From the IMG/VR virus record IMGVR_UViG_3300023184_009656, positions 1 through 60,878 of that record: DNA of 60,878 bases. One strand, written 5' to 3'. Each line of letters starts with the position of its first letter. The stretch's first letter is position 1. The notes under the pieces are model-generated. The model made no database searches. It was not told the DNA's origin and was given only the letters and a program-made list of their open reading frames with translations. This DNA comes from a virus. Made by a program: the position numbers and the translations under genes. Positions 4,783 to 58,616 of this stretch are shown piece after piece.

Positions 4783-4790
4783 AGTGTAAT
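4783..4790 (+). promoter_or_regulatory. AGTGTAAT element, candidate late promoter
   Basis: AGTGTAAT lies in the 33-base gap before the 4800 gene, 9 bases from its ATG, with no Shine-Dalgarno in between. The same octamer or close variants sit in most + strand gaps. If it is a -10-like box, the transcript would start almost at the ATG. Confidence 0.5.
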
Positions 4791-4799
4791 ATCTATTAT

Positions 4800-5324
4800 A
4801 TGACCACTAATAAAATTGTAGATATTGCAGATGAAATTTATCGCGAATTAGGCGAACCAACTGATCTTAGTCATGCTAGTATTGCTTTTTGGTTAAGAAC
4901 TAATATTGGCGATCTTAATCTTCTTATTAATAAAAGATTTTACATAAGTGAAGATACTTTTGAAGTAACTGTTCCAGAAGATCTTAATGATACTTTTGGA
5001 GATATTGAAAAAAGCGTATTTAAAATGATTTATAGTATTCATTATTATGAAAGACTTTTTAGAAATGCTCTTGGCGCAGCTAGCACAGATAGCACAATTG
5101 AAATAACAGAAAATGGATTTACTGGCAGAAAAGTTAATAAAAATGAATTAGCAAAAACTTATGCTCAATTAAGAAAGCAAATCAATGATGAGCTTCTTGT
5201 TCTTACTAAAAATTACAATCTTAATGAAGCTAAACCTATTCAAGTTGCTGGAGATGATATTTATCAAGATCCAACAAGACCTTATACTTATACTAGCTAT
5301 CTCAGAAGCATAGAGAATTCATAA
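4800..5324 (+). CDS. Putative neck / head-tail connector protein
   Basis: A 174-residue mostly helical soluble protein opening the small-gene block between the fibre genes and the tail tube gene. It contains the hydrophobic helical segment HASIAFWLRTNIGDLNLLIN near residue 25 and a helical middle (KSVFKMIYSIHYYERLFRN), then a charged helix (KTYAQLRKQINDELLVLTK). This pattern fits gp6/gp15-type head-tail adaptors, and the genomic slot just upstream of head-closure and tail-completion positions agrees. I cannot identify the family from sequence alone. The ATG lies 9 bases after an AGTGTAAT element and has no visible Shine-Dalgarno. The next gene begins one base after its stop. Confidence 0.7.
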   Translation: MTTNKIVDIADEIYRELGEPTDLSHASIAFWLRTNIGDLNLLINKRFYISEDTFEVTVPEDLNDTFGDIEKSVFKMIYSIHYYERLFRNALGAASTDSTIEITENGFTGRKVNKNELAKTYAQLRKQINDELLVLTKNYNLNEAKPIQVAGDDIYQDPTRPYTYTSYLRSIENS

Positions 5325-5325
5325 T

Positions 5326-5769
5326 ATGGCTTCATTTTTGTCAGCTGGTGATATTGCAGGATTTCAAAAAGATGTAAATACTCATTTTGATACATTTAAA
5401 AGATTATTAACAGTTCATAAAACACCAGTTAAAAAAATTACAGTTTCTATTCAAAATCCACAAGTTCTTGGATACGAAACTAATTCTGTAGAACAACAAT
5501 TTGAATACGAACAAAGGAGTTCAGATTTTTATGCAATTATATCATATGAAACAGAAAGAAGACCAGATATTATAGAGCAAATTCAAATTAAAACTAATAA
5601 TCCTCTTGTTTCTATTAAAGTTCAAAAAGATGCTAGAGATTACATCTTAAATGGCAAAACAGAAAAAATTGCTTTTGATGATAAAAGTTTTAATGTAGTA
5701 AGCACAGATATAGTTAAAAATTATCAAGGGCTAAAATATTATTTATTCTATTTAGAAGAAGCAAAATAA
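5326..5769 (+). CDS. Putative head-closure/neck protein
   Basis: A 147-residue protein with a short helical N-terminus (SAGDIAGFQKDVNTHFDTFKR) followed by alternating beta-like stretches such as KKITVSIQNP and FYAIISYETERRP. Size, secondary structure pattern and position second in the connector block resemble head-closure or stopper proteins of long-tailed phages. No diagnostic motif is recognised. The ATG sits directly after the upstream stop, and its own stop is followed one base later by the next ATG, so the genes are probably translated as one unit. Confidence 0.65.
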   Translation: MASFLSAGDIAGFQKDVNTHFDTFKRLLTVHKTPVKKITVSIQNPQVLGYETNSVEQQFEYEQRSSDFYAIISYETERRPDIIEQIQIKTNNPLVSIKVQKDARDYILNGKTEKIAFDDKSFNVVSTDIVKNYQGLKYYLFYLEEAK

Positions 5770-5770
5770 C

Positions 5771-6361
5771 ATGGGCAGCGTAGACTATACTTCTATTCGA
5801 GAGAAGATTAAAAATGTAAAAAAACTAGAAGTTTTGGCTGACAAAAAAGTTCAAGCTGGCGTAGAAGAAGCTAAAAGTAATTTCATAGAACAATTTGAAG
5901 AGCATCCAATTACCAAAGAAATTCAAGATGGCCCAGAAGCAAGTAATTCATCTGGAACATTAAATGGTCAAGGAAATCTTTTTAGTTTTATAGGTTTTGA
6001 AAGAGGATCTAATCCAATCGCGCCAGTTTCTAATTTCTTAAAAAATGCATTTCAAGTTAAAAAGTTAAAAACAGAAATTGGTAGATCAAAAATAGTTATA
6101 AATTATAAAGTATCATATCCAACACAAAAAGAATTAGATGGCTTAACTCCTATGCCTTGGGAACCTGGTAATAGTTGGTTAATTAATGTAGAAAAAGGTA
6201 TATCTGGTTTTAGTAATTATATTAGCAAAAAATTCTCTAAAGGTAGATCTGGAACAGGTGTTCAATCATCAGAAAATGTTAGATCTGCCAATTTCAAACC
6301 AACGAAATATATGTCAGATATAGTTAGTAATTTCTTAAAAAGTGTAAAGAAGATTAAGTGA
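5771..6361 (+). CDS. Putative tail-completion protein (HK97 gp10-like position)
   Basis: A 196-residue basic protein. An N-terminal helix (residues about 1-45, Lys-rich, with KVQAGVEEAKSNFIEQFEEHP) is followed by a Gly/Ser-rich loop and a beta-rich middle, ending in a Lys-rich helix. Tail-completion proteins commonly combine an N-terminal helix with a beta domain, and this is the expected gene position. Its final codons overlap the GTG start of the next gene (GTGA). The match is by architecture and synteny only. Confidence 0.6.
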   Translation: MGSVDYTSIREKIKNVKKLEVLADKKVQAGVEEAKSNFIEQFEEHPITKEIQDGPEASNSSGTLNGQGNLFSFIGFERGSNPIAPVSNFLKNAFQVKKLKTEIGRSKIVINYKVSYPTQKELDGLTPMPWEPGNSWLINVEKGISGFSNYISKKFSKGRSGTGVQSSENVRSANFKPTKYMSDIVSNFLKSVKKIK

Positions 6362-7209
6362 AAATACAATTTGATAATTTAGTTACTTCTAGTATGATGC
6401 TATTTATTGATAATAAATTGTGTTCTAAAGGAGAAGCTTTTACTAATTATAGTGGTCAAATATATCCTATTGAAAGTAGTTATTACTCTTATAACACTTA
6501 CGCTTTACCATTTAGACAAATTATAGCAGATAGTTCAATTAGTGGCGCTAATATTATGTCTGGAGTTTATGTTAATAATACATTTACTCCTGTTAATACT
6601 AGTAATTTAGTAGGAATTAATCATTATAGAGGTCAAGCATATTTTAGTGGAGCTGCTGGTGGCAATTTAAGTGGCAGATACGCTGTAAAAGATTTTAATA
6701 TATATTTAACTAACAAACCAGAAGAAGAGATATTATTTGAAACTCAATACAAAATAAGGCCAAAAATAGCTCAAAGTTTAACTGGTTTAGCTGATAATGT
6801 TGAAACTATACCATCAATTTTCATCAAAAATAATGGCAGTATGAATCAGCCTTTTGCTTTTGGTGGCATTAAAAATTCAATGTTAGATATAAGAGTTATT
6901 GTTTTAGCTGATAATTTATATAATTTAGATGCTGTTTGTTCAATTTTAAGAGATACAGCCAATACTTTTGTATATACAATAGAATCTAGTGATTTAAAAC
7001 TAGATAATTTAGGTAATTTTACAAGTGGCTATTATAACTATAATAATATAGTAAGTAATAAGGTAAATAGCACAGATAAGCTTTATATTGAAGAAGTTAG
7101 GGTAAGTAAAGTCCCCAATGTAGGATTTAATAGCGTTAATTACAAAAACGTACTATACCCCGCTTTTATTGATTTTACTCTAAGAAAAGTTAGAGCAAAT
7201 TTGAATTAA
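6358..7209 (+). CDS. Hypothetical virion protein before the tail tube gene
   Basis: A 283-residue protein starting at GTG, which overlaps the upstream TGA; no better ATG lies near the N-terminus. It is Asn/Ser/Tyr/Gly-rich with a central beta-type region (residues about 100-160) and ends with IDFTLRKVRANLN. It occupies the slot normally held by the tail terminator just before the major tail protein, but at 283 residues it is longer than usual terminators. A tail terminator or a neck whisker/collar protein are both possible. An AGTGTAAA run 9 bases before the GTG may be coincidental because it also encodes part of the upstream protein. Confidence 0.6.
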   Translation: MKIQFDNLVTSSMMLFIDNKLCSKGEAFTNYSGQIYPIESSYYSYNTYALPFRQIIADSSISGANIMSGVYVNNTFTPVNTSNLVGINHYRGQAYFSGAAGGNLSGRYAVKDFNIYLTNKPEEEILFETQYKIRPKIAQSLTGLADNVETIPSIFIKNNGSMNQPFAFGGIKNSMLDIRVIVLADNLYNLDAVCSILRDTANTFVYTIESSDLKLDNLGNFTSGYYNYNNIVSNKVNSTDKLYIEEVRVSKVPNVGFNSVNYKNVLYPAFIDFTLRKVRANLN

Positions 7210-7232
7210 AAGTTCTCAAGTGAGATAATTTG

Positions 7233-7240
7233 ATGTAATT
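7233..7240 (+). promoter_or_regulatory. Weak variant of the AGTGTAAT element (ATGTAATT)
   Basis: ATGTAATT lies in the 59-base leader of the tail tube gene, ahead of a strong Shine-Dalgarno AGGAGA at 7255-7260. It matches the late element in its GTAAT core only. Confidence 0.3.
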
Positions 7241-7268
7241 TTAAATGAATTTATAGGAGAAAAAATAT

Positions 7269-8084
7269 ATGGGCAATGTAACATACTATCCAGCACAAAA
7301 ACTAACCGTAACAGGTACAGAACTTAATCTAGTTCAAAGCGCAGATGTCGATTTTAGTATTAGTCGTCAAGATATTTTTGAATTCGGCAATCTTTACGCA
7401 ATTGATAACATTCAAGTAGAACCGCCAACCGCTACTTTAAATTTTTCTTACATTCTAGCTACTGGAATTAATAATCACATTCTATTAGGTTTAAACAACC
7501 TAGACGTTTTACTCGCTGATGTAACTGGCAAACAATATGTGTTAAGCGGTGCTGGAGCACTTACAATTCCAAGTGGAGTTATTACTTCTTATGCAGTAGA
7601 AGGCTCAGTAGGAAATGTTCCAACAGTTACCGTGAGTGTTCAAGCTCTCGATGCAACGTATACTGCTGGTCTCCCAACTTATCCAGCGGGTAGCATTAAT
7701 GATATTAATGTTATTCGCCCAGATCAAATTAGTGTTAGTCTCGCTGGAACAAACTACGAATGTAGATCTTTCTCATTCACATTAGATATTCCACGCGAAT
7801 ATGTTAATAAGTTAGGGCAATTAACTCCTATTGCTAATATTTTAACTGGCCCACCAAAGGTTACAGTAGAAGCAGAAATTATTCTAAGAGATAGCGCAAA
7901 TCCAAAATTCGCAAATGATGCTTCCAATAACGTAAACATTGTTTGCGGTTCACTAAATTTTGCGGTTTCTGGAGCCAAACTAGCTAACTTTACTTCTAAT
8001 ACAACTCTAGACGATATTCAAATCGCCTCAGTAACATTAGAAGCACCAGTTAAATCAAATTCTCAAATCACAATCTCTGCTTAA
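7269..8084 (+). CDS. Major tail tube protein
   Basis: A 271-residue beta-rich protein with balanced Thr/Val/Ala/Leu composition. N-terminal residues include TYYPAQKLTVTGTELNLVQS, then an alternating pattern expected for a tail-tube beta barrel. It is followed, after two small genes and a chaperone-position pair, by the tape measure gene, the standard order of long-tailed phages. It has the strongest Shine-Dalgarno of the block (AGGAGA, 8 bases from the ATG). It also uses noticeably more C-ending codons (AAC, GAC, TAC, CTC, CGC) than neighbours, as expected for an abundant protein. A long hairpin follows its stop. No sheath gene accompanies it in this window. The identification rests on position, composition and expression signals. 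Confidence 0.75.
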   Translation: MGNVTYYPAQKLTVTGTELNLVQSADVDFSISRQDIFEFGNLYAIDNIQVEPPTATLNFSYILATGINNHILLGLNNLDVLLADVTGKQYVLSGAGALTIPSGVITSYAVEGSVGNVPTVTVSVQALDATYTAGLPTYPAGSINDINVIRPDQISVSLAGTNYECRSFSFTLDIPREYVNKLGQLTPIANILTGPPKVTVEAEIILRDSANPKFANDASNNVNIVCGSLNFAVSGAKLANFTSNTTLDDIQIASVTLEAPVKSNSQITISA

Positions 8085-8090
8085 GGTTTC

Positions 8091-8140
8091 AATATTATTA
8101 TAATAAACTAGACTTTCCGTTTGGTTTATTATATAATATT
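8091..8140 (+). terminator. Long AT-rich hairpin after the tail tube gene
   Basis: The left arm (8091-8108) and right arm (8124-8140) are complementary over 17 base pairs apart from one extra base, with a 15-base loop (8109-8123). A short T run follows. It could terminate part of the tail tube transcript or protect/process its 3' end, lowering expression of downstream genes. Confidence 0.6.
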
Positions 8141-8157
8141 TTAAAGGTAAAAGGTGT

Positions 8158-8373
8158 ATGTCAAAGGAACAAGACTATCTATCATTTCAAGTTAGAAGAA
8201 AAGTTACTTCTTTATTCAAGAATTATTTTATAATCTTAGAAGATCTCGTTAGAGAAAATCCTTCTATTTCACAAGAAAAATATAATCAAATCCGTAAAAG
8301 GATTTTAGATTATAGTAATGATACAATTAGAGAAATTGAGCAAGATATTGAACAATTCAAAATTTCTTTATGA
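8158..8373 (+). CDS. Small helical hypothetical protein
   Basis: A 71-residue highly charged protein, almost entirely helical, containing VRRKVTSLFKNYFIILEDL and a C-terminal EIEQDIEQF segment that could form a coiled coil. It lies between the tail tube gene and the chaperone-position genes. The start is supported by an AAAGGTAAAAGG purine-rich Shine-Dalgarno region. Its last bases overlap the next ATG (ATGA). No family is recognised; a tail-assembly helper role is inferred from position. Confidence 0.7.
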   Translation: MSKEQDYLSFQVRRKVTSLFKNYFIILEDLVRENPSISQEKYNQIRKRILDYSNDTIREIEQDIEQFKISL

Positions 8374-8630
8374 AAAAAATATCATTCAATTTTCCAGCCC
8401 AAAGTATAATTGAGGCTAATTTAAATTTACAATCTATACAAAGAGCTCTTTCTCAAGAATATAAAATCTATAGCCCAAAGCTAGAAACATTAATTAGTGA
8501 TAAATTTATATCCATATACAAAACATGGGATATTAAAAGAAAAGAAGATTTCGTCAGAACAATTGCTGGTAAACTTAACTTTAAGAAAGTTAAATCTTTT
8601 TTTGATGAAAAAACAGGAGAACAAATATGA
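8370..8630 (+). CDS. Small hypothetical protein in tail assembly block
   Basis: An 86-residue basic protein (MKKISFNFPAQSIIEANLN at the N-terminus) with a helical C-terminal half. The gene overlaps both neighbours by ATGA, so it is translated within a tightly coupled set running from 8158 to the tape measure. No recognised motif. It may be an assembly factor or a minor tail component. Confidence 0.65.
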   Translation: MKKISFNFPAQSIIEANLNLQSIQRALSQEYKIYSPKLETLISDKFISIYKTWDIKRKEDFVRTIAGKLNFKKVKSFFDEKTGEQI

Positions 8631-9388
8631 TACCACTTAAATTTTTATACAAATTCAAAGCTATTGAAACAATTGAAAAAGAACAAATCGAAGAGTCAAA
8701 AAATGACCAAGGCGAAGTAGTTAAAACTATTAAAACAGTCAAAGAAGAGAATCCTGTAGAATTCGCAGTTAGAAAACCTAACAGAGTTCTTTTTGATGAT
8801 GCAGAACTTTTCTATGGCGTAAAATTGGCTGAAGCAATTAAAGCTGGTATGTTAACTAAAACATTAATGATTAAAAAGTATGAAAAAGATGGCGGTATTT
8901 TTACTGAAAATGAATTAGAAAGAATTAAAAATATACTTGAATCTCTAGGTGAAACTCAAGCTAAATTAGATATTCTAGATCCAAAAGAAGAAACTAAAGA
9001 ATTATCAGAAGAAGAGAAAAAAGAAAAAGATAACCTTGAAGCTATGCTTAAATCTTTAAGATTAGAATTAATGGAAGTTGAGAATAATAAGAATAATATA
9101 TTTGAACAAACTGCTGAAAATAGAGCTAAGAACAAAATGTTAATGTGGTGGATTTTACAATTATGTTATAGGAAAGAGGGTGAAATATACTCTCCTCTTT
9201 TTGGTGAAGGTTCTTACGAACAAAGGATAGCAAAGTATGATGAATTAGAAGAAGGTGATGATAAATTCTTAAAGAAAGTACTTACTAAGTTCGCATATTT
9301 TGTTAGTTTTTGGTATGCTGGTAAAGCTAATACAGAAGAAGAATTTAAAAATGTAGAAGATTTTGTTGATAAGGAAAATGAATCTTGA
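8627..9388 (+). CDS. Putative tail assembly chaperone, copy 1
   Basis: A 253-residue acidic protein in the position of the gpG-type tail assembly chaperone, shortly upstream of the tape measure. The N-terminal region contains VEFAVRKPNRVLFDDAELFYG, a charged coiled coil covers residues about 105-160, and residues about 163-180 carry the pattern A-E-x-x-A-x-N-K followed by aromatic residues and I-L. The same pattern recurs in the next gene, so the two look paralogous. The C-terminus is acidic. Tail chaperones bind the tape measure and guide tube polymerisation in the cytoplasm. The stop overlaps a TTG start for the next gene (TTGA); there is no usable -1 slippery window, so coupling rather than frameshifting is likely. 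Confidence 0.65.
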   Translation: MIPLKFLYKFKAIETIEKEQIEESKNDQGEVVKTIKTVKEENPVEFAVRKPNRVLFDDAELFYGVKLAEAIKAGMLTKTLMIKKYEKDGGIFTENELERIKNILESLGETQAKLDILDPKEETKELSEEEKKEKDNLEAMLKSLRLELMEVENNKNNIFEQTAENRAKNKMLMWWILQLCYRKEGEIYSPLFGEGSYEQRIAKYDELEEGDDKFLKKVLTKFAYFVSFWYAGKANTEEEFKNVEDFVDKENES

Positions 9389-10377
9389 TAGATCTAACAG
9401 AAAAGAAATTAAAACTTTTATTCTTTGAAATTTGTAATGGCTATTCTAAACTTTTAGATAAAGATAATAAAACATACATATACATAAAACATTTTGGCGA
9501 GTTTACTTCTGGTGAGTTTGAGGAGTATTTTTTTGAGCAATATGAAATAGCCAAGAAAAAAGGTTTGCCCACGTTAGCAGAAAAAGAAAAATTTCTAATA
9601 GATCAAGATTATTGGACTAAAACTCAAAATGAAGAGTTAAAATATAAGCAAGAAAAATTACAAAAACTAGAAAAAAGCTATGCGGACTTATTCTTAAAGT
9701 CTCATATGGATAAGGCTAAAAAAGAAATAACTGAATTACGTAAAAATGTTAAAGCCTTAGAAGATGAAAAGAAAGACTTATTAGGTATGCATGCTGAAAC
9801 ATATGCTGAAAATAAGCTAGAATATTTTTATATTTTAAATTCATTTTATAAAGATAAAGAGTTAAAAGAGAAATTATTTGATTTTTACAACGAAGATGTA
9901 GATAGCGATTCTTATTATCAATATATTGTTTTACATAATAAAATTATCGAAAAATTCAATATTAATCATATTAAAGCTTTGGGTTTATCTAATTCATTTC
10001 AAAATATAATTAACGTATCAGATGAAAATTGTTACTATCTATTTGGAAAACCAATATATCATTTAACTTATTACCAAAATAGTATATTCACTTATGGCAA
10101 GTACTTTTCTAATATATTATCTATGCAAGAGGCTAAAAAATTAGATACAGCAACCAAAACTAATGCAGATAAGTTATTAGAATGGTATAATGCCCTTGTT
10201 AATTTTAAGTCTAAAAACCCTAATAGTTCTGGTAAAGGCATGAGTTTCGTTATGGGCGCAAACAAAGAAGACATGGAATATCTAAAGCAAGATGTGAAAA
10301 ACGATATGAATGATATAGCAAAAGCTCAAGGTGGAAAATTAGGTATACAAGAACTAGCGAAATTATCTAAAATATAA
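9385..10377 (+). CDS. Putative tail assembly chaperone, copy 2
   Basis: A 330-residue Lys/Glu-rich protein whose TTG start overlaps the upstream TGA. Residues about 80-135 form a predicted coiled coil, followed by A-E-x-x-A-x-N-K-L plus aromatic residues and I-L, aligning with the preceding protein. The C-terminal 70 residues include a Gly/Ser/Lys segment (NPNSSGKGMSFVMGANKED) unlike the rest. In many phages this slot holds the frameshifted chaperone extension; here the two proteins seem to be separate genes produced by duplication. A direct role with the tape measure is inferred from position. Confidence 0.65.
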   Translation: MIDLTEKKLKLLFFEICNGYSKLLDKDNKTYIYIKHFGEFTSGEFEEYFFEQYEIAKKKGLPTLAEKEKFLIDQDYWTKTQNEELKYKQEKLQKLEKSYADLFLKSHMDKAKKEITELRKNVKALEDEKKDLLGMHAETYAENKLEYFYILNSFYKDKELKEKLFDFYNEDVDSDSYYQYIVLHNKIIEKFNINHIKALGLSNSFQNIINVSDENCYYLFGKPIYHLTYYQNSIFTYGKYFSNILSMQEAKKLDTATKTNADKLLEWYNALVNFKSKNPNSSGKGMSFVMGANKEDMEYLKQDVKNDMNDIAKAQGGKLGIQELAKLSKI

Positions 10378-10384
10378 AAATATA

Positions 10385-10392
10385 AGTGTAAT
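10385..10392 (+). promoter_or_regulatory. AGTGTAAT element before the tape measure gene
   Basis: An exact AGTGTAAT lies in the 40-base gap ahead of the tape measure gene, 25 bases from the ATG. A Shine-Dalgarno region (AGGAAAAAGG, 10401-10410) lies between, so this leader would be ordinary if the element is a promoter. Confidence 0.5.
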
Positions 10393-10417
10393 AATATCAT
10401 AGGAAAAAGGTTAATCT

Positions 10418-13400
10418 ATGAGTGATATTATTATTTCGGTGGATGGAGATACAAGGCCGTTAGAGGCTAAGTTAGGCAAGATATCCGCCAGAACAGTAAA
10501 TTTAAATCTAAAGGATAGCTTATCACAGCCTTTAGGTAGAATTACTGGTAAAGTATCAGAATTCCAGAAATCATTAGAAGCATCTAATGCTCGTGTTTTA
10601 GCCTTCGGCGCATCAGCAGGAGCTATATATACTGTTCAAAAAGCTTTTTCTGAAATAGTAAAATCAACCATAGAAGTTGAAAAAAGTTTAGCGGATATTA
10701 ATGTAGTTTTAAATGCATCCAGTAAAGATCTTGGAAAATTTGGTAGTAGTTTATTTGGTATAGCAAAAAGTACTGGACAAAGTTTCGATCAAGTATCAAA
10801 AGCTGCAACAGAATTTGCTCGTCAAGGTTTAGGAGTAGCTGAAACATTAAAAAGAACAAGTGATGCTTTGATATTAAGTCGTCTTTCTGGATTAGATGCA
10901 GCAAGAAGTGTAGAAACTTTAACTGCAGCAGTAAATTCGTTTGCTCGTGCTGGATTAACTTCTACTCAAATCATTAACAAATTAGCAAATGTTGATGCAA
11001 GTTTTGCTGTTAGTACTGGTGATTTAGCAGAAGCTATTAGTCGAGTTGGTAGTACTGCTCAAGACGTTGGAGTAGATTTGGATCAATTAATTGCACTTGT
11101 TACTTCTGCTCAACAAACAACTGCTAGAGGTGGAGCAGTAATTGGTAACTCATTTAAAACTATTTTCACTAGAATTCAAAGAGCAGATACTCTTGATGCA
11201 TTAGAAGGTGTTGGTGTTGCTGTTAGAGATTTACAAGGCAATGTTTTACCAGCAATGCAAGTGTTAGATAATTTAGCAAAAACATTTGGAAAATTAACTC
11301 AAGCTCAACAAGCTTCAATTGCAGAAGATGTTGGTGGCGTATTCCAAATTAATATTTTGCGAGCAGCACTAGCAGACTTAGGAAAAGAATATAATGTTTA
11401 TAATAGTGCTTTAGGAGTTTCAAGAACTGCAACAGATCAAGCTATCAAAAGAAATGAAGCACTAAATCAAACTCTTTCAGCTCTAACAAATAAAACTTTC
11501 GTTAATTTAAAAGAAGCTGCAGCTAAAGTTGGTGAAATAACAATAGCTCCAACAATTAAAGGTGGGCTAGGTGGACTTAATGTTTTATTAGAAGAATTTA
11601 ATAAACCACAAGAGAGTCAAGGTATTGGAACACAAATCGCGACAGGAATTTTATCTGGTATAGGAAATTATATAAGTGGTCCAGGATTAGCAGTTGTTGG
11701 TGCAGCTTTTATTAAAATTTTTGGTGGATTGACTAAGTTTAGTGCTGAAGCATTAAAGAGTTTAATTGGAATTAGCAGTCAAGCAGATAAAATCGCAGCA
11801 GCTCAAGAAAGAGTTAACACTATTCTTGCTCAAAATCCAAGTTTAATTCAAGCTATTATTTCAAAAGAAAGCTCTTTGCTTCAAATAGAAAATCAAATAT
11901 TAAAAATTATACAATCTCAAAATGCAGCAAGAGCAGTTGGTGCAAGTATTTCTGCTAGAGTTGCTCCAGCAGCCGCAGCATTACCAATTCCAACGGTAAA
12001 AACAAAAACAAAAGCTGGTGGACATATTCCTAATTTCTCAGCTGCAGCAGCGCAAGAAATTATGGGAGCATATGCTGGAGGATATACTCCAGGAGCAGTT
12101 AAAAAAACCAATGGAATGTATTATAATACAGCAGAATCTGTTGTTCAATTTCCTGGAGCTAGCGGTCCAGCAATAATTCCTCCAGAAAATAGTGATGCAG
12201 GAAAAAATTATAAAAAACAATTTCAACGTTCTGCTGGATTTGATCCTTATGCGTCAAATGGATTCATTCCTAATTTTGCTAAAACATTAACAGAAAGTTA
12301 TCCAGAAAAAGGTTCTGCATCCAAACAAGTCTCAATGATTTATGCTAAAAAAGCTGGTATTGGGTTAGGAACTGGTGTTGCAAAATATGGAGATTATAAT
12401 GTTCCAATTAGTTTTAATACAGCTGGATTTTCTGCAAGTAAAGTTAGAAAACCTGAAGATGTTAATTTAGAAAAACAATTAGGAGATTATTTAGTTAAAT
12501 TTACAAATCAATTTGCTCAAAGAATTTTTGCTGGAGGATCTGGCGGAGGAGCAGCTAAAATTGGAGGGATAAGTGAATTATCAAATAGAGGTTCATTTGG
12601 TAGTATAGTTGGAACAGTATTTGAAACAGCAGTAGATTTAGCAGCAGGAAAATTAAATGAAGGTAGAGCACAAAATGCTCCTATTGATTTTGCAAGTCCA
12701 AATGGATTATTAAGAAAAATGTTTGGTGGTGCTCCAGGCCAATACGAAGCTAAAGTTAATAACAATCCAGATCAATTAAATAGCGTTGCTCAAAAAATTC
12801 TAAATACAGGTTTAATTTCTCCTCAATTAAAAAATTTATTAGGAATAAATACTAAACCAGAAGGAAAAAGAAGAGCTAAACAAAAACCCGCAAGATATCA
12901 AAAGAAAGCATCAGTTGGATTTATACCTAATTTTTCAGCTCTTCAAGAAGCGATAGGTAGAGAGCAAGCTGCTGGTATTTCTTCTAGTCAAATTAGAGTT
13001 GGAGCTGATTCAACTTTAATGAATAAAAATAATCCTTTTGGTCTAGGAGTTTACAATACAAAAGATGAACCAGCAGGATTAAAGCAAGGAATAAATAGGT
13101 CAAGAGGAAATATACCAAATTTTGCTATGCCAGTTGCAACTCCTGGAGCAGGAAGTATACCTGTTCCAGAAATGAAAAAACTTAAAGAAACTACTATAAA
13201 TTTGTCAGAAAAAATGGTTGTTAGTCAAGGCAGATTAATGGCTTTGAGTTTTGGTCTTTCTACAGCTCAAGGCATTATAACTCAATTTGGTTCAGAAACA
13301 AATAAAGTAACAAAAGGATTATCTCAAAGTTTGGGAATAATGAGTACAGTAGCTTCTGGATTTTCTGTTGGAGGGAAAAAATACGGAGGAGCAATTGCAG

Positions 13401-15682: not shown

Positions 15683-15685
15683 AAT

Positions 15686-27782: not shown

Positions 27783-27789
27783 TGAAACT

Positions 27790-27797
27790 AGTGTAAA
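27790..27797 (+). promoter_or_regulatory. AGTGTAAA element before FG-GAP propeller gene
   Basis: AGTGTAAA occurs in the 40-base gap, 25 bases before the ATG of the 27823 gene. A purine-rich AAAGGAAAAAGG Shine-Dalgarno lies between. Same layout as the tape measure leader. Confidence 0.5.
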
Positions 27798-27822
27798 TAT
27801 ACAAAGGAAAAAGGAATAAAAT

Positions 27823-33000: not shown

Positions 33001-33992
33001 ATTTTTCATCTAGCTTAGATCTTAATGATTCTGGAAATGTAGCTATAGTAGGAGCAGATGGTTTAGAAATAAATGGAATAAGTAACGTTGGAGCAGCTTA
33101 TATTTTTACTGGAAGTGGAACTAACTGGGTTCAGACTGCTAAGATTACTGGAACAAATGGACTTAATAGTATTTTCGGAGCTAGCGTAGCTCTTAATGGC
33201 TCTGGAAATGTAGCTATAGTAGGAGCAGATGGTGAAAACGTCGCCTACATCTTTACTGGTAATCAAAATAGAAATAATTGGGGTAAAGTAACAACAATTA
33301 CTAGCAATGATTTATTGCGTAGTGATTCTTTTGGTAGTCCAATATCTATTAATCGTTTAGGAGATATTGCAATTGTAGGAGTAATGAATGATGAAGATAA
33401 TTTACTTGGTTCTCTTAACGACTTAGGCGCAGCTTATATTTTTAATCCTAATGTAGTTACTTCTACATCTATTGAAAGTAGTGGTATTCTTTATGTTGTT
33501 GAAGGCGACTATTTTGGCGATTATCTTCCTCTCCCTTCTAGTAGCTCCAGTAGTTCATCTAGCAGTTCTTCGTCTAGCAGTTCTTCGTCTAGCAGTTCTT
33601 CGTCTAGCAGTTCTTCGTCTAGCAGTTCTTCGTCTAGCAGTTCTTCATCCATTAACCCTAACTATGAAAATTGTAAAAATTGTTGTGGAGTAACTCCTTC
33701 TTTAAATATTACTAATTTAAGACAAAATAATTTAAATAAATTTAACGCAACTTTATCTATAGGAATAGAAAACAAAAATTGCTCTGATATAGTAGATTCT
33801 TACAAAGTTTATTGTAATAATAATATAATTTATGAGAATCTATATTCAATGACTGGATCTGGTTCTTATAGTAAAGTATTAACTGTTTTTAATATATCTC
33901 CTATTAATAATTGGGCAGATTTAAAATTAAAAGTAAATAATATATCAAATATATATGAAATTAAAACTGGATTTTATGCTTTTAATTATTAA
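30003..33992 (+). CDS. Virion protein with RCC1-like repeats, FG-GAP propeller and polyserine linker
   Basis: The ATG at 30003 is preferred: it overlaps the upstream stop as ATGA and follows AAAGGGG, whereas an in-frame TTG two codons earlier has no support. The product is 1329 residues. RCC1-type motifs (LLKNNGRITGWG, LLNNGTVTGWGENQ, ILENGKINAWG) occur between about residues 190 and 520. Three weak FG-GAP-like units follow, then seven clear FG-GAP repeats from about residue 743 to 1150. Two adjacent blades share an exact 80-base DNA duplication. A 36-residue polyserine linker, built on a 15-base satellite, joins this to a small Cys-containing beta domain (NYENCKNCCGV onward). It is likely a multi-domain adhesin of the tail tip. 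Confidence 0.8.
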   Translation: MSKYLTKITSPSGGYGDFFGSGTAVNGDGNLLYVNSNKNTGIHVYWKDTINNTWIPSHYIDMTGNGYKPINITVNNTGNILYTSNEKKFSIFTSRINEFSGAGEKESINTELINQCKINNTNGNRVITSTKKVGTSIIPKKVILYDLGTRNNKYDYVEIRNKKVKEFIDPTMASLNCYKKIQIGLDHGILLKNNGRITGWGYDQGKANVFPTGFTNEGSEIYVTDIAAFPLGNLVIYNSGIYTGLMTGFGDGDNLLNKYHKKHPLITGYTKVAAGDYNFVAIAATGTVIWWGGTGIGTPSRPAVVPIQKPILPVTGAIDVSASNIYDNGQTYAWPVCLVLLNNGTVTGWGENQYNQLTPPPPRLNLLTMEQLKIKAISAGRFHSLYLYEDNVVTGIGIDDENYVKQENYSYNWQVFKSTTRIRAGDGFSLIDNNEFSSTFGGLTGYGYGNGEQSIKEFIENSTISYGSPVGADGTLLPEYTSHRNVVDYDVYGDYFSDQLYWAAAILENGKINAWGFNTDAKYLDNDLVLKEELLNIPSSIQNCTGSGNINSKFGDSIAINSGDLIFIADSSYNNTGVIYVYSEKLNWEKTGTITGSKNQANQSFGYSFNITDDGNTVVVGCPDTFNKSGSFYVFEKQGNSWQEKFNVTGFSGRHYSGLGDRIAINNSKNLILVSSLSGSGSIHLYTGNIQGWSGISMVTNPSNPNSGSWNLNAFDQWTVSKNFNTLIIPDPYFNSSPLTSSTGWGQIAKLSATDGVVMDNFGNSVCFNSLGNVAIIGAEQANINEKIDAGAAYIFTGSGTNWVQTAKLTGNSVIGSGNFGNSVALNSLGNIAIIGQKNCTGNFIGGEINYAPTIGAAYIFTGSGSNWVQTAKITGKNIVDSGLFGYSVALNSLGNIALIGAPYRDINEKTTAGEAYIFTGSGSNWFQTASITGNDININDRFGHTVALNASGNVAIIGSYGVDINGISNVGAAYIFTGSGTNWVQTAKITGSESTTNGYFSSSLDLNDSGNVAIVGADGLEINGISNVGAAYIFTGSGTNWVQTAKITGTNGLNSIFGASVALNGSGNVAIVGADGENVAYIFTGNQNRNNWGKVTTITSNDLLRSDSFGSPISINRLGDIAIVGVMNDEDNLLGSLNDLGAAYIFNPNVVTSTSIESSGILYVVEGDYFGDYLPLPSSSSSSSSSSSSSSSSSSSSSSSSSSSSSSSSSSSSSSINPNYENCKNCCGVTPSLNITNLRQNNLNKFNATLSIGIENKNCSDIVDSYKVYCNNNIIYENLYSMTGSGSYSKVLTVFNISPINNWADLKLKVNNISNIYEIKTGFYAFNY
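32898..33151 (+). repeat. Exact 80-base direct duplication of a propeller blade segment
   Basis: Bases 32898-32977 and 33072-33151 are identical over 80 bases and are 174 bases apart, exactly one 58-residue repeat. This indicates recent duplication or gene conversion between blades. Confidence 0.9.
33558..33647 (+). repeat. 15-base satellite encoding polyserine
   Basis: Six tandem copies of TCTAGCAGTTCTTCG run from 33558 to 33647; the last copy differs only in its final base. Each unit encodes five serines using both TCN and AGY codons. Flanking serines extend the homopolymer on both sides. Confidence 0.95.
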
Positions 33993-34002
33993 AAATAAAA
34001 TA

Positions 34003-34020
34003 GATATATTATAATATATC
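34003..34020 (+). promoter_or_regulatory. Perfect 18-base palindrome, possible operator or promoter region
   Basis: The sequence from 34003 to 34020 is its own reverse complement (GATATATTATAATATATC). It contains a TATAAT box on both strands. It sits 15 bases before the 34035 ATG in a gap that lacks the AGTGTAA element. Pure A/T composition makes a chance palindrome more likely. Confidence 0.35.
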
Positions 34021-34034
34021 ATATATAATTAAAT

Positions 34035-34451
34035 ATGGAAACAAAAATATCCGAAAATATAGCTATAGTTGTTTTGCATTTGATAAAAGATGATATTATC
34101 TTTTTAAAAGAATTTAAGAAATTTGTTCCAGTTCTTGAAAAAGAAATCCAAGATTTTTCTGAAGGTCGAGATCAAGCAAAAGACCAAATTTTGTCATATA
34201 TAAAAATTAATGAACAAGCAACGGTAAATTTTGTCGAATATTTTTTAAAAAATAACCCTCAAGTTCAAATTAATATTGACGAAATAATACAAAAATATCA
34301 AACAAAAGACCTAAGAGGGAAGGTATTTAAAATATCTAAGACTCCAGAAGCATTTGAAAATTTTTACATGTACATTAGATCAAATAATTCCAGCTTTAGA
34401 CAATTCTCTGTTACTTCAGAAGAAGACTCTTGGGTTATATTTTTCCTCTAA
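34035..34451 (+). CDS. Small helical hypothetical protein within tail genes
   Basis: A 138-residue acidic, helix-rich protein, unlike its Asn/Gly-rich neighbours. Helical segments include KDDIIFLKEFKKFVPVLEKE and a later NFVEYFLKNNPQVQINIDEI; the C-terminus is a beta-like stretch ending EEDSWVIFFL. Composition suggests a soluble cytoplasmic factor, for example an assembly chaperone for a nearby tail protein, rather than a virion subunit. No family recognised. The gene lies between two leader regions and may be its own transcription unit. Confidence 0.7.
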   Translation: METKISENIAIVVLHLIKDDIIFLKEFKKFVPVLEKEIQDFSEGRDQAKDQILSYIKINEQATVNFVEYFLKNNPQVQINIDEIIQKYQTKDLRGKVFKISKTPEAFENFYMYIRSNNSSFRQFSVTSEEDSWVIFFL

Positions 34452-34465
34452 GCTACTCATATTCT

Positions 34466-34473
34466 AGTGTAAA
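34466..34473 (+). promoter_or_regulatory. AGTGTAAA element before the 34522 gene
   Basis: AGTGTAAA lies in the 70-base gap, 48 bases before the ATG. A hairpin separates it from the Shine-Dalgarno, so this would be the longest leader of the set. Confidence 0.45.
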
Positions 34474-34477
34474 TTAC

Positions 34478-34505
34478 TTAGGAATCTGCAAAGATTCCAC
34501 CCTAA
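34478..34505 (+). promoter_or_regulatory. Leader hairpin upstream of the 34522 gene
   Basis: GGAATC (34481-34486) pairs with GATTCC (34493-34498) around the loop TGCAAA. The stem can extend by three pairs (34478-34480 with 34503-34505) across a 4-base bulge. The Shine-Dalgarno lies just downstream. No T run follows, so a terminator is unlikely; it may modulate translation or mRNA stability. Confidence 0.5.
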
Positions 34506-34521
34506 AGGATAAAGGTAAAAT

Positions 34522-35742
34522 ATGAGGAACGATTATTTTGAATTTAATGATATATCTGGTCATGGATTGCCGTCTTTTATAACTGGCTTGAATTATGTAT
34601 TACCAACTGGGATTAATGATAAAATTTTTATTGATTTAAATATTATTATAACTGGATATTACAAAACTCAAGACTCTACTAGAAATCCAATAATTTTGAA
34701 TGTTTCAAATTTACCAAATAATATTTTTTTTAATACAGGAACTAAATACTTACAAGGTTATTTACAAGATGAAGGAATTTATAACATAAAGACTCATATA
34801 TTAGAATCTGGAATTGCTCATGAAAAAACTTTAAGATTAACTTGTTATAATCCAAACAATAAATACATATATAAAGTTAATTATCCTATTAATATTGGAT
34901 TTATCAAATATAACCCTTTAGAAAGATTAGGAATATCTACATTATCTGATGGAGATGCTAGAAGATATTTTAATCGTACTAATATATCTAATACTTCAAT
35001 TCAAAATAAAATAAGTAATTTTGTAAGTGGATTAAAAAATCTAAATGTTTGGAACAAGTTTCAAAACATTTGGATATTAAAAAGTGGTTATAATTCTAAT
35101 GATAGTAGTTTTTATGATTTAAAAAATATAAATTTTAGTGGTTCTATAATAGGCGGAATGACAAAAAGCATAAGTGGATATAAAATTACAACAAATGGAA
35201 TTGGAACTCCACCTAGTCGTTTGTCTTTTTTAAATTATCCTATAAAATTTACTGGCAATTGGACAACTATGTTTTTATTGGAAAATTATACTGGATCATT
35301 ACCTACTACTTCTCAAGCTTTTTTAAGTAACGACAGTTATCAAGCAAGTGGATTTAGAATGGGATATCCAGCGAATAAGGAATTTAATTTTTGGAATACT
35401 GAAAGTCTTCCTCCTGGTAGCGGAGGTTTTGGAATAGCTGAAACTAATTCTCATTTAACCAAATATTCATTTATCACAGCTAGTCTTTCGACTGGAACTC
35501 TAGGATATGTATATTCTGGAACAGCTAAACTTTTAGTTGATAATAAAAATAAAATTCAATCTAGTGCACCTTATAAAATATCTAACAGAGCCATCCAAGA
35601 TTTATCTTCTCCTGCTGGTGGAAATTATGGATTTGAAAATAATATAGCATTTTTTGGATTATCAAATCAAGATTTATCTGATTATCATTCTGGAATAAGA
35701 GATCTAGCAAGAAATACTATATATGATAATTTAAACTTTTAA
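34522..35742 (+). CDS. Putative virion protein with LamG-like C-terminal domain
   Basis: A 406-residue protein. The N-terminal 135 residues contain Ig-like strand patterns (SNLPNNIFFNTGTKYLQGY). From about residue 185 the pattern W-x-I-L-K-S-G-Y then LNYPIKFTGNWTTMFLLENY and the final NNIAFFGLSNQDLSDYHSG resembles a LamG/concanavalin-like lectin fold, in which a Phe/Gly-rich last strand is usual. Such domains bind carbohydrates on cell surfaces. The start is supported by an AAAGGATAAAGG Shine-Dalgarno. Assignment of the domain is moderate; the virion role is inferred from position. Confidence 0.6.
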   Translation: MRNDYFEFNDISGHGLPSFITGLNYVLPTGINDKIFIDLNIIITGYYKTQDSTRNPIILNVSNLPNNIFFNTGTKYLQGYLQDEGIYNIKTHILESGIAHEKTLRLTCYNPNNKYIYKVNYPINIGFIKYNPLERLGISTLSDGDARRYFNRTNISNTSIQNKISNFVSGLKNLNVWNKFQNIWILKSGYNSNDSSFYDLKNINFSGSIIGGMTKSISGYKITTNGIGTPPSRLSFLNYPIKFTGNWTTMFLLENYTGSLPTTSQAFLSNDSYQASGFRMGYPANKEFNFWNTESLPPGSGGFGIAETNSHLTKYSFITASLSTGTLGYVYSGTAKLLVDNKNKIQSSAPYKISNRAIQDLSSPAGGNYGFENNIAFFGLSNQDLSDYHSGIRDLARNTIYDNLNF

Positions 35743-35753
35743 ATTAATGATAT

Positions 35754-35761
35754 AGTGTAAT
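35754..35761 (+). promoter_or_regulatory. AGTGTAAT element before the 35783 gene
   Basis: An exact AGTGTAAT starts 29 bases before the ATG in a 40-base gap; AGGAACAAGGA follows as Shine-Dalgarno region. Confidence 0.5.
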
Positions 35762-35782
35762 TTATTTATAGGAACAAGGAAA

Positions 35783-36826
35783 ATGGTAGATAAAAGCTAT
35801 AATGTAAGTATTGGACCAAAAACTATATATAATATATATAGTGATTTTGGTCAATTTGAATGTTATTATATTAATGGTATAGAAGCTTCTGGTCTTTATT
35901 TTGAAAAAGGAAAAGACTATCAATTTATTCAAACTGACATTTCAAATATCGGAAATCCTTTAAATATTTATCTTGATGAATATGGCAATAAGAAATTAGA
36001 AAAATATATAACAATAAGTGGTTCCGCTGGTCTTAATAGATACCTTACAGTTTCTATACCAAAAACTTTCAAACAAACAAATACTCTTTATTATGGAAAT
36101 GAAAGTGGACAATTTTTTGGTGCGCCCATTAAATTAACTTCAACAGAATATTATTTAAAACATAATATCCAATTATATTGTTTTAATGCATATCATGATA
36201 ATACTAAATACATTATACCCGATAATATCTTAACTCAAAATGCAAAATTTTATAATGAATTTACTTTAATTTCTGGTATTTTACCTTTTATAAATAAAAA
36301 TAATTATCTTTTTAAATCAAATTATCTTTCTAATATTCGAACAGATGTTATAAAAATTAATGCTTATATACCTAATAAAGGAATAATGCCAGATGATTCT
36401 TTAAATTTGAATTTTTTTGGGAATAATTTATATTATAAAAACATTAAAACTGATGCAACTAACCAATGGTCTAATTTGTATGATTTATATAATTTAATAA
36501 TAGATTTATCTTTTGCGGATTCTGGTTCATTAGAATCTGGGACTCAATCTAGTGCAAAGTATTATCAATATGGTTATCGACTATCTGGTTGCGAAGGATG
36601 TATTGATAAAATTACTCTAACTACTGGATTTAATAATTTTTATTCTGGACAAATAACTCTTTTTTATAATCCTAGAAAAATTTATGAAAATTATAGAAGC
36701 TATCCATTGATGAATGTAAACGGAGAAAGTATTAATAATACAAATTTCGTTAGTCCAAATACAATTATTGCTGAAGAAAATTTTAAATATACTAAATATA
36801 CTGGAGCCGAAGCATATTATGCCTAA
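35783..36826 (+). CDS. Hypothetical virion protein
   Basis: A 347-residue Tyr/Asn/Ile-rich protein of beta character with a Cys pair near residue 270 (SGCEGCIDK). The N-terminus reads DKSYNVSIGPKTIYNIYSDF. No family is recognised. It overlaps the next gene by 8 bases (ATGCCTAA), the same overlap form as at 22600. Together with its neighbours it likely contributes to the tail-tip complex. Confidence 0.6.
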   Translation: MVDKSYNVSIGPKTIYNIYSDFGQFECYYINGIEASGLYFEKGKDYQFIQTDISNIGNPLNIYLDEYGNKKLEKYITISGSAGLNRYLTVSIPKTFKQTNTLYYGNESGQFFGAPIKLTSTEYYLKHNIQLYCFNAYHDNTKYIIPDNILTQNAKFYNEFTLISGILPFINKNNYLFKSNYLSNIRTDVIKINAYIPNKGIMPDDSLNLNFFGNNLYYKNIKTDATNQWSNLYDLYNLIIDLSFADSGSLESGTQSSAKYYQYGYRLSGCEGCIDKITLTTGFNNFYSGQITLFYNPRKIYENYRSYPLMNVNGESINNTNFVSPNTIIAEENFKYTKYTGAEAYYA

Positions 36827-39416
36827 TTATTATATAGGATATAGAAATTTTTTAAATTTGCTTAATAAGAAGCTTTCTTCAAAAACATCTTATGGTATAC
36901 AGAAATTTAATTCAAGTGGAAAATACATCAATCAATTTGTTGATCAATACAGAACTCAAGATTATAAAACATATAATGAAACATTAAATCCAATAATTTT
37001 AGAAGATATATCTTTTATACCTTTGCAAAATTATGTTAAACATATTTATACAGGTTTATATTATAGAAAAGAACCATATGAATATGAAACTGGGAGTTAT
37101 AATTTACCAAAAATTACTGGCAATTTAATTACGGGTGATATAAATTATATAGACTATCAAGCTGCGAGTTATATAAAAAATTCAAATGATCCATATTATG
37201 ACTCTCAAATGCCAAAATCTGGAGAAAAGCATATATTACATTTAAATCTCAATTTATATGGATTTGAAGAAGATGCTATTGAAGATTGCGATATAGAATT
37301 GAATGCAATGGTTTTAAAAACTGGATTTTTCCAGCAAATACCTAAAGATCCAACTATATTAAATTTAAAAATTAATGATATTAATCCTACATATTCTATT
37401 ACAGATTCTGTAAATGATTATATTCAACAAAAAAGAATTTTAAAGTCTTCAGAAGCTAATAATTTTATAAGTTATAATCCAAGTTTCAATCGTTTCAATT
37501 CAGATACTTTTTCTAATAATACAACTGTAATTGAAAAATATAAATATATAAAAAATACAATTACAATATCAAATCCATTTTTTAGTAATAATAAAAATAT
37601 TGCTCTACCATGTTTATTTCAATATAAATCTACAAACAGTAATCTAACATACAATCTTGGAGAATATAAATTTTTAATTTTTGATAGTTCAAATAACTAT
37701 TTACAAAGTGGAAATTATATAACTGGAACTCAAACTGGTTTCCTATACTTCTTAGCTCCAGGGACTTATACAACAATAATATCTGGTAATGAAAATGATT
37801 TCTTATATACAGAAAATAGTTTAAGTGGTAAAAATCAAAATATTCATTTACTTTCTATGAGTGTTGATTTTGTGACAGGAGAAAAATTACAAGAAATTTA
37901 TATTGAAAATCAAGATAAAATCTGGGCTACTTACGCACTAGGTCCAAGAGAATTAGTCTTTGGATCTGGATATAATAGTTTAAATTATCAAAATCCAGTA
38001 GCATTTGCAATTGATTTTGAAAGAAATTTAAGTGGGCAAGTAGATAGCCCATTTTTATTTTATAGGGAAATGGCTGGATCTTATAAAGATTTATGCACGC
38101 CAACAATAGTTCAAATTGGAATTGGAGAAGGGTGTACTACGGCATTTTGCTTAATTTGCGATCAAGCAGGTAAATTATTTAAGCAAGGACAAAGTTATAT
38201 TGATGTGCCAAAAGAATATCTTCCTCTCGAAAAATATGCTGCAATATTTAAATATTATGAAGATCCAAATTCAAATACATACAGAGTAGCAATAGATGAA
38301 TCTTTTATCGCTCAATGTTGTAGTTGCAAAGAGCAAGGTTGTACTAATCTTGCGGCAACAGTACAAACTCAAATAAATAATCCAACATTAAATCAAAGTG
38401 GTGATGCAATTTATTCTGGAGTATTTTTCTTAGATAATTTAAATCCAGCTACAGTAAATATAAAATATAATATAAACTATTACTCAGGACAAATAGCTTT
38501 TAATAGTTTTTATGAAGGAGACAAGATCACATTTAAGCAATATCCATTTGATTTTGAAAAAGTATATCAAAGATTGTATGGATCGGCTCCTGCAATTAAA
38601 GAGTATATAACAGAATTTATATTCTCAAAATCTTTAGTTGGAAATAATTACTTTAATAATAAACAAGATTTAATAAATAAAATAAATATTAAATTAGCTT
38701 CTTCTGGCTTATATAGTTGGAAACCTTTAAAATATAAAAATATACCAGAATTTGAATACGGTCCATTATTAACTGGAATTGATATAGGAATTGATGCGTC
38801 AGGAAATGATTTAATTGATATAATTTCTTTAAGGAGCGGAAAATTTGGAAGTCATGATATTAAATTAGTATTACAACCTAGACTTCAAATATATAATTAT
38901 CTTGTACCTAATATTATAAGATTGGAAATTTCTGATGACTTTATTAATTGGACTGGAGTTGTGTCTTCTCAAAATAGACAACCAATTAATACTTATATTA
39001 AATCACCAAATAATACAGTTGGCAATATTCGATATGACGAAATAGAAAATACAAAATACACAATAACTAAAATTATTCCAACTTCTTCAGAAACAGAAAG
39101 CATTGATGAAGAAGAACTTGATTTAGAAAAATTAGCAAGTAGTTTTGCTTCTGGAAATTTGGTTTCAGGAGATTATATTTGTATATTAGATGCTAATAGT
39201 AGTGGAATAAATTGTGGAACTGGTTATAAAGATTATTTCGTTGGAACTAAATTAGATTTTACTTGTAAAGAAAAATTACCAAGTGAACTACCAGATACAG
39301 GTTCAAGTGGACAATCTCCTCAACAACAAGAAAAAACTCAAAAAGCAGAAGATTCTCAAGCATTAACCCAAGATATTGATAGATTTAGAATAGGATTCTA
39401 TGACTATTTATCTTAA
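36819..39416 (+). CDS. Large virion protein with Cys-rich centre
   Basis: The ATG at 36819 gives an 865-residue protein and is preferred over an upstream TTG (36768) lying inside the previous gene: its N-terminus MPNYYIGYRNFLN matches the YRNFLN start region of the 25683 protein. The middle contains LDFERNLSGQ-like beta segments, then a Cys cluster at about residues 440-530 (CTPTIVQIGIGEGCTTAFC, CLIC, QCCSCKEQGC) that may bind metal or form disulfides. The C-terminal 60 residues are Gln/Ser-rich and disordered-looking. No enzyme motif. Likely baseplate or tail-tip component. Confidence 0.65.
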   Translation: MPNYYIGYRNFLNLLNKKLSSKTSYGIQKFNSSGKYINQFVDQYRTQDYKTYNETLNPIILEDISFIPLQNYVKHIYTGLYYRKEPYEYETGSYNLPKITGNLITGDINYIDYQAASYIKNSNDPYYDSQMPKSGEKHILHLNLNLYGFEEDAIEDCDIELNAMVLKTGFFQQIPKDPTILNLKINDINPTYSITDSVNDYIQQKRILKSSEANNFISYNPSFNRFNSDTFSNNTTVIEKYKYIKNTITISNPFFSNNKNIALPCLFQYKSTNSNLTYNLGEYKFLIFDSSNNYLQSGNYITGTQTGFLYFLAPGTYTTIISGNENDFLYTENSLSGKNQNIHLLSMSVDFVTGEKLQEIYIENQDKIWATYALGPRELVFGSGYNSLNYQNPVAFAIDFERNLSGQVDSPFLFYREMAGSYKDLCTPTIVQIGIGEGCTTAFCLICDQAGKLFKQGQSYIDVPKEYLPLEKYAAIFKYYEDPNSNTYRVAIDESFIAQCCSCKEQGCTNLAATVQTQINNPTLNQSGDAIYSGVFFLDNLNPATVNIKYNINYYSGQIAFNSFYEGDKITFKQYPFDFEKVYQRLYGSAPAIKEYITEFIFSKSLVGNNYFNNKQDLINKINIKLASSGLYSWKPLKYKNIPEFEYGPLLTGIDIGIDASGNDLIDIISLRSGKFGSHDIKLVLQPRLQIYNYLVPNIIRLEISDDFINWTGVVSSQNRQPINTYIKSPNNTVGNIRYDEIENTKYTITKIIPTSSETESIDEEELDLEKLASSFASGNLVSGDYICILDANSSGINCGTGYKDYFVGTKLDFTCKEKLPSELPDTGSSGQSPQQQEKTQKAEDSQALTQDIDRFRIGFYDYLS

Positions 39417-39423
39417 ACATAAG

Positions 39424-39435
39424 TGTGTAATAAAT
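39424..39435 (+). promoter_or_regulatory. Variant late element (TGTGTAATAAAT)
   Basis: TGTGTAATAAAT lies in the 31-base gap, 12 bases before the ATG of the 39448 gene. It shares the GTGTAAT core with the other elements. There is no evident Shine-Dalgarno. Confidence 0.4.
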
Positions 39436-58608: not shown

Positions 58609-58616
58609 CGAATATT

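Follow-up and report, generated by a model that had tools for sequence, protein, structure and literature searches.

The leaders of virion genes in the phage record IMGVR_UViG_3300023184_009656 (IMG/VR), whose 60,878 bases are called the window below, repeatedly carry a short element, AGTGTAAW, with the core GTGTAAT or GTGTAAA. This late element, as it is called here, is very probably a promoter of the late genes. It is likely, taking the proposal as a whole, that it is read by a sigma factor that the phage group itself encodes. A sequence-only reading of the window had proposed the element as a candidate late promoter, and that proposal is supported by the partition of gene classes, by the orientation of the copies, by their position in front of the first genes of operons, by their fixed spacing from start codons, and by their conservation in diverged relatives.

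Gaps between genes make up 717 bases, or 1.2%, of the window. AGTGTAAW occurs seven times on the two strands together, against 6.67 ± 2.58 copies expected (100 shuffles, 55 of which reach seven). Overall over-representation was therefore dropped as an argument: the total is at chance, and what counts is the placement of the copies, not their number. Six of the seven lie in gaps (uncorrected binomial p = 1.8e-11), and among 11,908 patterns of the same form TATTATAW alone outranks AGTGTAAW in this respect. All seven are in sense, 15-56 nucleotides upstream of a start codon. The five exact copies reported earlier (4783, 10385, 27790, 34466 and 35754) are in place, and two others, at 6341 on the plus strand and at 58616-58623 on the minus strand, had been overlooked. 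The variants reported at 7233 and 39424 both exist, the first being GATGTAAT from 7232 (ATGTAAT from 7233) and the second TGTGTAAT. Nine plus-strand gaps are at least 15 nucleotides long; AGTGTAAW is found in five of them, NGTGTAAW in six, and seven are reached by counting GATGTAAT. The remark that nearly every plus-strand gap has a copy was slightly generous, as two gaps are empty. The sites are as follows.

4783..4790, plus strand: late element AGTGTAAT, 17 nucleotides before ATG 4800 of a 174-residue tail-cluster gene; leaderless spacing
6341..6348, plus strand: late element AGTGTAAA, in the end of gene 5771-6361, 17 nucleotides before GTG 6358; leaderless spacing
7232..7239, plus strand: weak form GATGTAAT, 37 nucleotides before ATG 7269 of a tail-tube-like gene (named by position), with AGGAGA between
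10385..10392, plus strand: late element AGTGTAAT, 33 nucleotides before ATG 10418 of the tape measure protein, with AGGAAAAAGG between
27790..27797, plus strand: late element AGTGTAAA, 33 nucleotides before ATG 27823, with AAAGGAAAAAGG between
34466..34473, plus strand: late element AGTGTAAA, 56 nucleotides before ATG 34522, with an 18-nucleotide hairpin (34481-34498) in the leader
35754..35761, plus strand: late element AGTGTAAT, 29 nucleotides before ATG 35783, with AGGAACAAGG between
39424..39431, plus strand: late element TGTGTAAT, 24 nucleotides before ATG 39448
58616..58623, minus strand: late element AGTGTAAA, 15 nucleotides before GTG 58608 of a 99-residue gene (58309-58608) in the early cluster

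Relatives of the window were collected by scanning viral contigs with the tail-cluster protein and the DnaE-like polymerase, which gave 6 and 80 loci, respectively. The 26 records that were read come from uncultivated phages and amount to 2,354,905 bases, 5.0% of them in gaps. Their genes were called here as the longest open reading frames and are not curated, so that the gap counts contain some error. The count of coding against gap copies, proposed earlier as a check on the element, reveals gap enrichment in the window and in the 26 relatives alike, the relatives serving as an independent test: among them, 239 of the 315 AGTGTAAW copies are in gaps, compared with 8 of the 119 copies of the reversed pattern. 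The window and its relatives together (2,415,783 bases, of which 118,782 are in gaps) have 322 copies, 245 in gaps, 53 in coding sequence in the sense direction and 24 in antisense; the corresponding numbers for the reversed pattern are 10, 60 and 52. The gap copies that face a gene precede 86 different gene families and are thus not a single ancestral site repeated. A blind count of the words found in gaps returns GTGTAAT as the top 7-mer (281 observed, 0.5 expected from coding sequence) and AGTGTAAT as the top 8-mer, the next independent motif being made of TTGAC- and TATAAT-type words. In coding sequence GTGTAAT has 85 copies, against a median of 435 for 150 sampled permutations of its letters. 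Part of this low count is due to the stop codon in one frame, and part may be avoidance.

The base requirement of the element is strict. When one of the six leading bases of GTGTAAT is changed, the gap share falls from 78% to 0-13%. At the last position T and A are preferred (293 of 378 GTGTAAT and 112 of 229 GTGTAAA copies are in gaps), C (10 of 36) and G (21 of 68) being weaker. The base that precedes GTGTAAW is free: it is A, C or T in the tape measure leaders, 23 of 23 of which have NGTGTAAT, and G in one record. The leader of the 174-residue tail-cluster gene likewise retains the element as NGTGTAAT in 21 of 21 orthologues, and the family of the gene starting at 35783 has it in 6 of 7 members (0.86). 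Orthologues of the tail-tube-like gene show ATGTAAT, CTGTAAT or GGTGTAAT at the matching place, depending on the phage, which makes GATGTAAT at 7232 a conserved weak form. The copy at 6341 is found in 7 of 21 orthologues, two of which (G004 and G024) have an ATG start at equal spacing, and it could be a coding coincidence.

Three further observations concern the surroundings of these sites. The virion-region gap 3' of the tail-tube-like gene, which lacks the late element, contains a terminator-like hairpin-forming stretch (8102-8130). The hairpin in the 56-nucleotide leader of gene 34522-35742 has the sequence GGAATCT-GCAA-AGATTCC. The 99-residue gene on the minus strand has an acidic tail, adjoins the gene of the DnaB-like helicase and perhaps encodes a late regulator.

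The late element and the host-like promoter boxes mark different sets of genes. Among 112 families with members in at least 7 records, NGTGTAAW marks half or more of the members in 17, a host-like box does so in 18, and no family falls in both sets. Among the families with the late element are the tape measure protein (23/23), the 174-residue tail-cluster gene (21/21), a minor tail protein and a tail-fibre-assembly-like protein; those with the host-like box include DnaB (26/26), a 267-residue core gene (25/26), DNA ligase and UvdE. Late copies precede tail and other virion genes, and TTGACA/TATAAT boxes precede replication genes, in line with the contrast drawn earlier with the sigma70 boxes on the other strand. 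The virion genes of the window were assigned from their size and from where they lie relative to the tape measure gene, most structural genes having no family match. The host-like boxes of the window that serve as a contrast are these.

45263..45291, minus strand: TTGACA-17-TATACT, 6 nucleotides before ATG 45256; present in 25 of 26 family members
49584..49612, minus strand: TTGACA-17-TATTAT, 6 nucleotides before ATG 49577; present in 24 of 26 family members
54278..54306, minus strand: TTGACA-17-TATAAT, 6 nucleotides before ATG 54271 of the N-terminal part of the DnaE-like polymerase; present in 16 of 26 family members
58270..58298, minus strand: TTGACT-17-TATCAT, 7 nucleotides before ATG 58262 of the DnaB-like helicase; present in 26 of 26 family members
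59311..59339, minus strand: TTGACA-17-TATAAT, 21 nucleotides before ATG 59289, with AAGGAA between

In all 27 records, 235 of the 245 gap copies of AGTGTAAW face the next gene, 123 of them at a distance of 15-19 nucleotides. Measured from its first base, NGTGTAAW most often lies 15-18 nucleotides before the start codon, where the distribution peaks sharply; a second hump is seen at about 25-36. A Shine-Dalgarno sequence is absent from 216 of the 217 genes that have the element at 14-19 nucleotides and present in 85 of the 106 that have it at 25-40, the rate for all genes being 24.6%. Since about half of the gap copies are 15-19 nucleotides from the start and lack a Shine-Dalgarno sequence, a leaderless state is probable for many late mRNAs. 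The element stands in front of 264 of 887 genes that follow a same-strand gap of at least 15 nucleotides and of 83 of 260 divergent genes. Within operons it is rare: of 1,289 genes overlapping or abutting their predecessor, 30 have it. As had been noted before, no -35 box accompanies it at a fixed distance: the positional profile of the gap copies in the 27 records is flat upstream, and a k-mer test finds no upstream partner, its top words being shared coding sequence and divergent copies. Some divergent gene pairs have two late elements head to head, about 15 base pairs apart, forming a near-palindrome (G006 55607/55622, G008 39780/39796, G015 18948/18964 and others).

The host-like boxes (matching at least 10 of 12 positions) end 6-9 nucleotides upstream of the start codon in 240 of 364 genes. 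On the minus strand of the window (44453-60878), five early boxes of the TTGACA-17-TATAAT type were checked, four of which end 6-7 nucleotides before the ATG. When TGTAAW is set in the place of TATAAT, its end falls mostly 7-9 nucleotides before the start, about one base further than the end of the host-like boxes. TGTAAW may accordingly be regarded as a -10 element that has G for A at -11 and is within about one nucleotide of the TATAAT register. The simplest reading would be that the RNA of both promoter classes starts at the A of the start codon at many sites; judging from the spacing of their boxes, the early mRNAs look leaderless too.

A possible reader of the element is encoded by the relatives. 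Family searches in the 27 records find Sigma70_r4 in 11 (none over the cut-off) and Sigma70_r2 in 18 (10 over the cut-off), and the sigma-like matches fall into two families, S1 and S2. Profile searches in 36 records find S1 in 22, S2 in 11 and both in 6; the distant 158-kb record G036 likewise has both. These genes support the earlier suggestion of a phage-specific sigma factor, but they are not of the gp55 type: the T4-type family phrog_234 matches in 1 of 36 records (E 0.002), away from S1 and S2, and hhalign comparison gives nothing, so that gp55 was rejected as the reader.

S1 has about 200 residues, comprising regions 2 and 4 and an invariant C-terminal D-x-I. Among solved structures it matches RpoD (hmmsearch E 1.8e-6), and Foldseek places its predicted fold with the sigma factors at a probability of 1.00. 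In Pfam, region 2 is over the cut-off in part of the records, and all region 4 matches are under it. S1 adjoins a gene that reads, by our own interpretation of its sequence, as a deoxynucleoside monophosphate kinase. Another gene adjoining S1, of 101-112 residues (L136:18510-18833 and its orthologues), has a conserved acidic-hydrophobic tail of the EDDIL or EEDLL type. This tail and those of S1 (D-x-I) and S2 (D-I-D) might be clamp-binding.

S2 has about 227 residues, with region 2, a cysteine-rich insert in which five cysteines are invariant, and a helical part at the C-terminus. Downstream lie a 364-residue gene and the genes of an ERCC4-type nuclease and of the large terminase. Sigma70_r2 is over the cut-off in each of the 7 records of the family searches that contain S2, although the sigma nature of S2 is less certain than that of S1. 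In most of the records viewed, a sigma70-type box heads the operon of S1 or S2, but in G002 and G024, the S2 holders closest to the window, a TATAAT without a clear -35 precedes the S2 operon.

S1 is present in 15 of 15 records that have its neighbourhood, and S2 in 7 of 7. An attempt to tell by co-occurrence which of the two is the reader failed, as every matching neighbourhood has its gene and the two distant sets alike retain the element; the records without S1 or S2 may simply be fragments. These distant sets, together with one around the polymerase, indicate the breadth of the element. In 38 loci with an S2 of about 60% identity (L444-L481, G+C 0.378), GTGTAAW has 104 gap and 82 coding copies, compared with 4 and 86 for the control; the 7 loci with the most distant S1 have 24 and 24 (control 3 and 22); and 16 loci that surround distant DnaE genes, and are for the most part early regions, have 10 and 26 (control 3 and 69). 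Record 3300027720_000011, which has both S1 and S2, has the element as GGTGTAAT. In the L444-L481 set an additional form, AGTGTATA, occurs alongside AGTGTAAT.

By combining these observations, it is possible to propose how the late genes might be switched on. AGTGTAAW would be a -10-type element of late promoters, in which T (or A) comes after the core GTGTAA, the neighbouring sequence is rich in A and T, and a -35 is missing. The core RNA polymerase of the host, carrying S1 or S2, would bind TGTAAW in the place of the host TATAAT and start RNA about 7-9 nucleotides downstream. At about half of the sites this start would be the A of the start codon, giving a leaderless late mRNA; at most other sites a short leader with a Shine-Dalgarno sequence would result. 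Host sigma70-type promoters would serve the early genes, among them the S1 and S2 operons, and the making of the sigma factor would therefore switch on the virion genes.

Several observations weigh against this description. The window gaps before 8158 and 34035, in the virion region, have no late element. Conversely, the element precedes the small subunit of ribonucleotide reductase (13/17) and the 99-residue gene of the early cluster (at 58616 in the window, and in 21 of 25 orthologues). Family and profile searches find no sigma-like gene in the 60.9-kb fragment that is the window; S1 and S2 are absent from its record, and none of the records is known to be complete. The region-4-like domain of S1 would normally read a -35 box, which is absent here. 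The model of S2 is of low confidence (mean predicted local distance difference test score, pLDDT, 63.5), its matches to ECF sigma factors are weak, and a sequence comparison of S2 with solved structures gives no sigma match, one unrelated chain being returned at E 0.13. The calling of sigma70 boxes is lenient, as 71 of 2,529 shuffled upstream sequences also reach 10 of 12. In the most distant records the total of NGTGTAAW is not raised over that of the reversed control (15/25 in G028, 43/37 in G036), although the gap placement persists. The search for a single-subunit phage RNA polymerase was made without a working control. In favour of the description, the multisubunit polymerase family PF00562 is found in 0 of 36 records, all of which may be fragments (control 14/14).

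An unlikely alternative is that the main sigma factor of the host reads the element as a -10-only promoter, region 4 of this factor being displaced by a phage protein and the sigma-like genes serving some other purpose. The model for such an arrangement is gp39 of phage P23-45, which favours extended -10 promoters. A re-programmed host holoenzyme does read -10-only middle and late promoters (PMC7403470, in the part drawn on here). TGTAAW, moreover, differs from TATAAT in a single base. The A at -11, however, is the base most needed by the main sigma, and it is this base that is replaced by G. Furthermore, GTATAAT, which would suit the host better as a -10, shows no gap enrichment (61 gap and 827 coding copies), and no record that has the neighbourhood of S1 or S2 is without the sigma-like gene, as described above.

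The head-to-head pairs, TTTACACTT...AAGTGTAAT at the divergent gaps of many relatives, would fit an operator to which a phage activator or repressor binds beside a core promoter. This is nevertheless improbable, since nearly all copies are oriented towards the next gene, the spacing peak at 15-18 nucleotides leaves no space for a separate -10 downstream, and no other conserved box is found on either side. Slightly more improbable still is that an alternative sigma factor of the host, rather than of the phage, reads the element. At more than 32% identity, a scan of genome contigs for the host returns only a 49% DnaE match, on a contig (L240) of a metagenome-assembled genome labelled Halobacteriovorax, and a 46% match in another bacterium. 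This contig is a weak hint at the host and not enough to assign it or its set of sigma factors. The element, however, tracks the phage group across 28-41% G+C, and the phages have their own sigma-like genes. Finally, a translation signal in the RNA that replaces the Shine-Dalgarno sequence would agree with about half of the sites, those 15-19 nucleotides from the start, near the Shine-Dalgarno place, and with the lack of that sequence there, but is very hard to reconcile with the second class, 25-40 nucleotides upstream with a normal Shine-Dalgarno sequence, with the near absence of the element from internal operon genes, and with the tape measure gene, which has the element in either position depending on the phage.

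The proposal that a phage sigma reads the late element can be extended further, though tentatively, and the extension is perhaps more doubtful than not: a large uncultivated phage group might use a cascade of two divergent sigma-like proteins of its own, with mostly leaderless early and late mRNAs. The cysteine-rich insert of S2, whose gene lies a few genes upstream of the terminase, would then be zinc-finger-like, and the -10 element would double as a ruler for the start of translation. S1, S2 and the capsid protein (named by position, having no family match) have no match among the annotated phages of a 50,697-record phage collection. Late-gene control would be assigned, on the basis of sequence only, to a phage group that is widespread and has no isolate in that collection. 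GTGTAAW could be used for calling late operons and start codons in such records. Two questions become testable now, namely how a sigma factor chooses a -10 in which G replaces the A at -11, and how late genes are expressed from leaderless phage mRNAs.

The above description may be compared with late transcription in other phages. The late promoters of T4, the classical example, have the consensus TATAAATA. They consist of a -10-type element only and depend on gp55, gp33 and the sliding clamp gp45, the phage sigma being homologous to region 2 (PMC2988020, in part). Their element is unlike GTGTAAW, and the gp55 family is essentially absent here (one weak match in 36 records). Phage 7-11 also employs a phage sigma factor, gp47, for its late genes, but the promoters, GTAAtg-(16)-aCTA, are bipartite with an upstream element (PMC8948821, in part), which has no counterpart here. 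Leaderless phage mRNA as such is not new, as the authors of the AR9 study remark that phage transcripts are often leaderless (PMC5312081, in part).

Among the titles of the literature matches listed, none reports a GTGTAAW element, and those listed for the motif strings are unrelated. The late promoters of a Kayvirus, the Staphylococcus aureus phage 515A1, TGTTATATTA, have a long -10 and no -35, and an alternative phage sigma was concluded (PMC7698491, in part). As is proposed for the window, a -10 alone serves mainly virion genes, and early genes use sigma70; the promoter sequence, however, differs from GTGTAAW. At the middle and late promoters of phiEco32 the phage protein gp36 reads a single element, tAATGTAtA, with the start 6-8 base pairs downstream, and sigma70 serves the early genes (PMC8948821, in part). 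The likeness lies in a short -10-like element with TGTA, no -35, and a phage sigma on the host polymerase, a role that S1 or S2 would fill here. The consensus, however, is unlike GTGTAAW, hhalign aligns neither S1 nor S2 with gp36, the region-4-like domain of S1 is missing from gp36, and the relevant part of PMC8948821 does not mention a leaderless layout. The kind of system is already known from phiEco32 and Kayvirus; its sequence, its sigma families and its often leaderless layout appear to be new.

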